Source: Nautiliaceae bacterium (GTDB lineage Bacteria > Campylobacterota > Campylobacteria > Campylobacterales > Nautiliaceae). Taken from it: 57,383 nucleotides of DNA. The notes beneath the pieces were generated by a model. The model did no database searches. It was not told where the DNA came from and saw only the letters and a program-made list of their open reading frames with translations. Positions within the stretch are counted from its first letter, which is position 1, and every line of letters starts with the position of its first letter. The translations under genes were made by a program, and so were the position numbers. This document shows, one piece after another, positions 25,614 to 26,520 of the stretch. The stretch spans positions 1 to 57,383 of the forward strand of contig JAMOSZ010000008.1 of the NCBI GenBank assembly GCA_027062625.1, read 5' to 3'.

Positions 25614-26401
25614 GAAAAGCATATTTTAAAGATTGGTATGGAGGAACTTGTGATAATGTAAAAGCATACATTGCTCACTTTAATAAAATAATTGATGAAA
25701 ATGTTGACCCTCAAAAAGCAAAAGAAGTTTTTTCTTTAATTCCAAAAGCCCTAATAGCACCACACGCTGGCTGGATGTATAGTGGATTTACTGCAAATTT
25801 TGCTTATAGAATCGCCCAAAACGCAAATCCAAAAAGAGTTGTAGTCATTGGACCAAGCCATAGAGTCCCTTTTAGAGGAATTTCCACAACTCTTGAAGAT
25901 AAATATGAGACCCCTTGTGGATTCTTGCCAATTGATAGGGCATTTGCGGCTGAGCTTATTGATAAATTTGGAGTAGTAAATTTTGAAGAAGTACATCAAG
26001 AACACTCAACAGAGGTTCAAATGCCTTTTATCCATCATTACTTTGGAGAAATTCCAGTAGTAGAGTTAATATATGGAGAGTACAAACCAGAGAAATTAAA
26101 AGATATTATTGAGTATGCAATTGAAAATAACTCCTTAGTAGTAATCTCAACTGACCTTAGTCACTATTACGATTTAAAAACGGCAAATGCACTTGATTAT
26201 AACTGCTTAGAAGCAGTCCAAAACCTTGATTTAGGAGCACTTGAAAAATGTGAAGCGTGTGGGAAAATAGGAATTGGAGGAATGATTATTGCCGCAAGTG
26301 AAATGGGACTTACTCCATTTATTGTAGATTATAGAACAAGTGCCGATGTTAGCGGAGATACAAAACAGGTTGTAGGATATATGAGTGCAATTTTTGTTTA
26401 A
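25610..26401 (+). CDS. amrB: AmmeMemoRadiSam system protein B (MEMO1 family)
   Basis: APHAGWMYSG, IGPSHRVPFRG, STDLSHYYD, CGKIGIGGMI. Confidence 0.9.
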   Translation: MRKAYFKDWYGGTCDNVKAYIAHFNKIIDENVDPQKAKEVFSLIPKALIAPHAGWMYSGFTANFAYRIAQNANPKRVVVIGPSHRVPFRGISTTLEDKYETPCGFLPIDRAFAAELIDKFGVVNFEEVHQEHSTEVQMPFIHHYFGEIPVVELIYGEYKPEKLKDIIEYAIENNSLVVISTDLSHYYDLKTANALDYNCLEAVQNLDLGALEKCEACGKIGIGGMIIAASEMGLTPFIVDYRTSADVSGDTKQVVGYMSAIFV

Positions 26402-26407
26402 TTTTGA

Positions 26408-26413
26408 TATAAT
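26408..26413 (+). promoter_or_regulatory. -10 of the 19-codon microgene
   Basis: TGATATAATTTCACTA then AGGAGG. Confidence 0.6.
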
Positions 26414-26441
26414 TTCACTACTTTCATTATAGGAGGTAAGA

Positions 26442-26501
26442 ATGCCAAGAGGAAAATTTAGACTAAAAAGAAAAAGAAGAAGAGTTTTATACTCAAAATA
26501 A
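26442..26501 (+). CDS. 19-aa highly basic microprotein candidate MPRGKFRLKRKRRRVLYSK
   Basis: ATG 26442 preceded by AGGAGG (26431-26436) and TATAAT (26408-26413); TAA at 26499-26501. Confidence 0.6.
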   Translation: MPRGKFRLKRKRRRVLYSK

Positions 26502-26520
26502 ATTCTCTTCTCCGTTTTTT
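26476..26520 (+). terminator. Possible intrinsic terminator of the 19-codon microgene
   Basis: AGAAGAG...CTCTTCT stem followed by CCGTTTTTT; 5' arm lies within the coding sequence. Confidence 0.45.

Follow-up and report, generated by a model that had tools for sequence, protein, structure and literature searches.

Can a reading frame of only 19 sense codons, more than half of them arginine or lysine, be a real gene, and if so, what does its product do? The question arises from the genome of a member of Nautiliaceae, a family of hydrothermal-vent bacteria, where such a frame lies in the 57,383-nucleotide stretch of DNA analysed here (hereafter, the window). The original prediction saw in it a complete tiny transcription unit. 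In the window sequence, the claimed -10 element, AGGAGG Shine-Dalgarno sequence (SD), ATG, 19 sense codons and TAA are each present, and 10 of the 19 residues are indeed K or R. No good -35 was found at the microgene, and none had been claimed. From these sequence features, we infer an autonomous transcription unit. The elements discussed below, including two hairpins, are as follows.

26408..26413, + strand: -10 hexamer TATAAT, part of the extended element TGATATAAT that starts at 26405 (sequence; similar in orthologs)
26419..26438, + strand: SD-sequestering 5' hairpin, TACTTTC (26419-26425), loop ATTATA, GGAGGTA (26432-26438) (fold, orthologs)
26431..26436, + strand: Shine-Dalgarno sequence AGGAGG (sequence; GGAG core in 16/17 orthologs)
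26442..26501, + strand: 19-codon gene MPRGKFRLKRKRRRVLYSK with TAA (orthologs in five genera; purifying selection on the peptide)
26478..26520, + strand: 3' hairpin, AGAAGAG (26478-26484) paired with CTCTTCT (26505-26511), followed by T6 (26515-26520) (orthologs, arm permutation)

The unit starts immediately past a Memo-type gene, whose stop codon lies at 26401: the extended -10 occupies 26405-26413, with the TATAAT hexamer 28 nt 5' of the ATG (26442), the SD is 5 nt from the ATG, and the sense codons (26442-26498) are followed by TAA at 26499-26501.

Using a translated search of 60 relatives, i.e., 21 Nautiliaceae genomes and 39 genomes of other families, we found ungapped matches to the peptide in 17 of the former and in none of the latter. 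A profile search gave E values from 7e-12 to 3e-8 in those 17 genomes; across 299 genomes of the order, no value outside the 17 was better than 0.0175. The 16 best weak profile matches outside Nautiliaceae (E 0.02-0.07) were each read individually and rejected: they look like chance fragments that lack a corresponding start or SD, and several are plainly shifted frames of other genes. We also scanned for a nucleotide pattern consisting of GGAGG, a spacing, ATG and then basic codons of the form xxG+x+x+++; it captured 15 Nautiliaceae copies, whereas outside the family it matched in 2 of about 278 genomes; its reversed control gave no matches in the genomes listed. Scanning a collection of 85,000 species with a loose pattern yielded nine Nautiliaceae-type contigs and two matches judged to be due to chance, in a member of Lachnospiraceae (L046) and in a Deltaproteobacteria MAG (L054). 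A phylum-wide sample of Campylobacterota contained no further copies beyond Nautiliaceae. The original prediction had staked the gene on conservation of its peptide, and within Nautiliaceae the peptide is conserved.

Intact copies are present in 16 of the 21 Nautiliaceae genomes, representing 5/5 genera. Orthologs from several genera preserve the exact 19-codon frame together with its ATG, SD and -10, the last as TATAAT or a close variant at a comparable position. The other five genomes comprise one decayed copy, one loss and three that are not assessable: the contigs of G012 and G015 end beside the radical SAM gene that precedes Memo, and the absence was traced to these contig ends, while G018 is incomplete and the microgene region was not found there. 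In G012, a short repeat, GTTAGTAGAGGTTAGTAGAAGTATTAGAAG, follows right after the radical SAM gene, in the expected place of Memo (L131, 2510-2558, at the end of contig C75). In the decayed copy (G017), the SD is deleted and charged residues are changed, resulting in the peptide MVREKFKMKGKRRRILYSK; G019 retains the end of Memo with no microgene after it, apparently a real loss. Both cases (L017 and L127, respectively) belong to genus g3, which suggests that the microgene is being lost in part of this genus. The microgene is thus dispensable, and its absence from all sampled relatives implies that ribosomes in this order can do without the peptide.

Comparison of codons indicates what is being conserved. 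Six congeneric species encode an identical peptide, with 8 of the 19 codons varying synonymously, and between the window and genus g4 copies the first 16 codons carry 13 synonymous substitutions and 0 nonsynonymous ones. Identity between genera over 16 codons is 0.87 for the peptide, compared to 0.94 for bL36, 0.93 for bL34 and 0.73 for the neighbouring Memo; synonymous divergence of the gene is low, resembling that of ribosomal proteins. The conserved residues include G4, F6, L16 and Y17, in addition to Arg/Lys. This pattern shows that strong purifying selection acts on a 19-residue protein, and the microgene, a selected frame with an SD and a start codon, belongs with the conserved bacterial small proteins. 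A chance reading frame in AT-rich, AGA/AAA-rich DNA, as the simple codon composition might lead one to suspect, has next to no probability: start, stop, length and SD are conserved across genera, the substitution ratio is 13:0, and conservation refutes this explanation. The microgene is real, as originally observed.

The neighbouring genes are named here by presumptive family, from their translations. In the window, the Memo-type gene follows its radical SAM partner, and the microgene faces a convergent block, yqeY-mnmE-jag-yidC-...-rpmH, that also contains rnpA; rpmH, encoding bL34, is 4.5-8 kb from the microgene where both share one contig. Memo is adjacent upstream in 16 of 17 loci. The genus g4 copy (L008/L130, G009:C149, PUXY01000149), MPRGKFRLKRKRRRVLGGKK, lies downstream of ABC-transporter-like genes and away from Memo, the intact microgene and Memo being on different contigs; its peptide ends in ...RVLGGKK. 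On the 3' side, a co-directional NAD-glutamate-dehydrogenase-like gene follows in eight loci (L001, L005, L009, L012-L016), whereas six loci, that of the window among them, have a convergent gene there (L003, L004, L006, L007, L010, L011); the convergent neighbour is yqeY, but in L011 a GGDEF protein. This switching points to a rearrangement hotspot just 3' of the microgene.

A hairpin that sequesters the SD was absent from the original prediction. In the window, its stem is 7 bp long (-5.9 kcal/mol, z -1.95), and the predicted transcription start at about 26419-26420, 6-7 nt past the -10, would place it at the very start of the mRNA. Of the orthologs that have the usual leader, 15/15 can form an equivalent stem with the SD: 5' arms of CUCC, CUUCC or CUUUC with their neighbours pair with GGAGG(U) across loops of 4-10 nt, and C/U changes in the 5' arm preserve pairing through G-C or G-U. 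Such a stem was found in 0/12 control genes with a GGAGG SD, taken from the window and related loci. Hairpins were tested sequence by sequence because the MAFFT alignment of the leaders misplaces the 5' arm; the shuffle p was 0.004-0.15 per sequence and 4e-10 when combined, a value that is overstated because related sequences were treated as independent. Predicted accessibility of the SD at 37 C was mostly 0-0.2, in a set that includes L007, whose -10 was mis-assigned. The hairpin is not universal, the genus g4 copy having a plain SD. The layout would suit an accessory ribosomal protein whose translation is controlled.

The 3' hairpin was described originally as terminator-like, and this holds in part: a hairpin with its 5' arm inside the coding sequence, followed by T6, is present, but what is conserved is a hairpin overlapping the coding sequence, not the GC stem plus U-tract of a classical terminator. 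In the window, the 5' arm lies within the KRKRRR codons and the 3' arm CTCTTCT is followed by CCG and then T6. Nearly all orthologs have a 3' hairpin with a coding 5' arm: the KRKRR codons, rich in purines, form a stem with a run of mostly pyrimidines that in most cases directly follows the stop codon. Pairing between the two arms of one gene is better than with permuted arms (p = 0.003, for related sequences that are not independent). The window hairpin itself is weak (-11.7 kcal/mol for coding sequence plus flank, z -0.7 relative to flank shuffles), being the weakest by z score among the copies with the usual layout; the fold of the whole window transcript has z -0.92, and a consensus terminator scan does not list the hairpin. 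The conserved structure is A-U rich, with the U-tract after the stem often missing and absent in several copies. It is a candidate weak terminator, a candidate stabiliser of the 3' end, or both.

To which family could the protein belong? The original prediction offered two comparisons, bTHX and COX24/mS38, and neither was borne out. With X added to the peptide to reach the required minimum of 20 residues, searches of Pfam and NCBIfam returned no match (positive controls matched): neither NF047430 nor PF08213 for bS22/COX24_C, both of which match a mycobacterial bS22 control, although Pfam and NCBIfam also miss a Bacteroidetes-type bS22 sequence; no PF05162 for eL41, with a matching control; and neither PF17070 nor TIGR04560 for bTHX. 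No match to Thx or COX24_C above cut-off was detected in the 21 Nautiliaceae genomes, a bS22 profile run without a positive control had no match among 120 genomes of the order, and PDB searches with the peptide also returned nothing. Since no bS22, COX24 or THX was found in Nautiliaceae, the corresponding ribosomal sites look unoccupied.

Similarity was also compared to composition-matched shuffles, which served as the null model. For M1-anchored comparison to Bacteroidetes and Borrelia bS22, p was 0.02-0.12 for the window peptide and 0.22-0.54 for the commonest form; for eL41, the lowest p was about 0.05, and the commonest form had 0.32; for bTHX, p was 0.11 or more. None of these resemblances exceeds the shuffles once the number of comparisons is taken into account. 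We considered the following relationships: (i) bS22 (NF047430; COX24_C PF08213; Bacteroidetes and Borrelia forms) is, like the peptide, tiny, very basic and usually unannotated, and the MPxGK start of 7jil and 9i5v also occurs in the genus g1/g4 form, but bS22 has 28-33 aa compared to 19, and the peptide lacks the THKRKK or NRHKK motif; (ii) eL41/aL41 (PF05162) is likewise single, short and basic, with a core RLKRKRRKM that resembles RLKRKRRRV, whereas its chains are 22-41 aa long and confined to archaea and eukaryotes; (iii) the mitochondrial mS38/AURKAIP1/COX24 occupies the pocket that bS22 and eL41 use, also as a basic helix, but is a longer protein whose family model does not match the peptide; (iv) bTHX, a ribosomal protein of thermophiles, is similarly tiny and basic, with RGK followed by a hydrophobic residue. 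Homology to eL41 (FRLKRKRRRV versus RLKRKRRKM) and the MPxGK match to bS22 as a sign of homology were both dropped because composition shuffles score equally well. Judging by sequence, the peptide is placed in none of the bS22, eL41, mS38 and bTHX families.

The broader class that the original prediction had in mind, tiny basic ribosomal or RNA-binding proteins, is still the best reading. Ten basic residues, a few conserved positions of hydrophobic or aromatic character (F6, L16 and Y17), the lack of a membrane segment and conservation resembling that of ribosomal proteins are best read as features of an RNA-binding peptide. We put the probability at about one in two that the product of this genuine microgene is an rRNA-binding accessory ribosomal protein like bS22, eL41 and mS38, which makes this the most likely of the readings. 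The peptide would form a short helix, rich in arginine, that binds structured RNA, with rRNA as the most likely partner, and, as a lineage-specific accessory protein, would plug and stiffen a pocket in the RNA and perhaps also a contact between the subunits. The 5' hairpin may limit translation, either through feedback by the unbound peptide or depending on free 30S or on temperature, and the 3' hairpin may end or protect a message of about 100 nt. Models for this action are bS22, eL41 and mS38 in the h27/h44/h45 pocket; these are very basic helices between h27, h44 and h45 near the decoding centre, and several of them came to light only through structures, having been missed by annotation (PMC10618245, PMC10085706, PMC7005279, PMC6582356). 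The basic share of the peptide (10/19) is close to that of bS22/eL41, which is 55-65% (PMC10085706). In Borrelia, bS22 was discovered as such an unannotated ribosomal microprotein, and the authors of that study expect more in other bacteria (PMC10618245). The convergent rpmH-rnpA-yidC-jag-mnmE block in the window, the bS22, COX24 and THX sites that look unoccupied, the six copies without a co-directional downstream gene and the G009 copy in another context also count in favour of the ribosomal reading. There is no sequence homology to any known ribosomal protein, which counts against it, as do the dispensability of the microgene, its absence from all sampled relatives and the fact that Arg-rich peptides bind many RNAs. 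That the protein independently fills the very pocket of eL41, bS22 and mS38, under control of the 5'-terminal SD hairpin, is a more tentative proposal, which may well be wrong.

An RNA partner outside the ribosome, i.e., a specific sRNA, mRNA or other RNP, possibly tied to radical SAM/Memo, is somewhat doubtful: the Arg-rich composition resembles known RNA-binding peptides and Memo is upstream in 16/17 loci, but the genus g4 gene is in a different context on another contig than Memo, the microgene has its own promoter-like element, and G019 kept Memo while losing the microgene. Conservation of structures at both ends could mean that the transcript of about 100 nt also acts as an RNA, with the peptide as a second product. 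This dual function is possible, although rather unlikely, and is not needed; selection acts at the level of the amino acids while synonymous changes are numerous, the leader, loops and flanks diverge freely, and there is neither a conserved single-stranded seed nor an Rfam family. The same pattern of selection speaks against a function of the RNA alone.

Two further readings are less probable still. The peptide is cationic, as a secreted antimicrobial or toxin would be, and free bS22 and eL41 inhibit translation in vitro, bS22 also inhibiting bacterial growth (PMC10085706); a toxic role is nonetheless improbable, given the lack of a signal sequence or hydrophobic stretch, the family-wide vertical conservation and the lack of a conserved adjoining immunity or antitoxin partner. 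Attenuation of a downstream gene by Arg/Lys sensing is highly improbable. A leader peptide would account for the short frame, the hairpin overlapping its 3' end and the glutamate dehydrogenase-like gene that follows in eight loci, but G4, F6, L16 and Y17 are conserved besides Arg/Lys, and a co-directional downstream gene is not conserved; this reading is disfavoured because six loci, that of the window among them, keep the peptide although a convergent gene follows.

Genes of 19 codons lie under annotation cut-offs. The microgene family is undescribed in the libraries and literature covered, having no Pfam or NCBIfam model and no occurrence of its sequence in the papers examined, and it provides a clear, cheaply testable example of a conserved bacterial microprotein. 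If the product is ribosomal, it would be among the smallest such proteins in bacteria, showing how small ribosomal proteins can be, and would provide further evidence that tiny basic helices have been recruited again and again to the pocket near the decoding centre of the small subunit.
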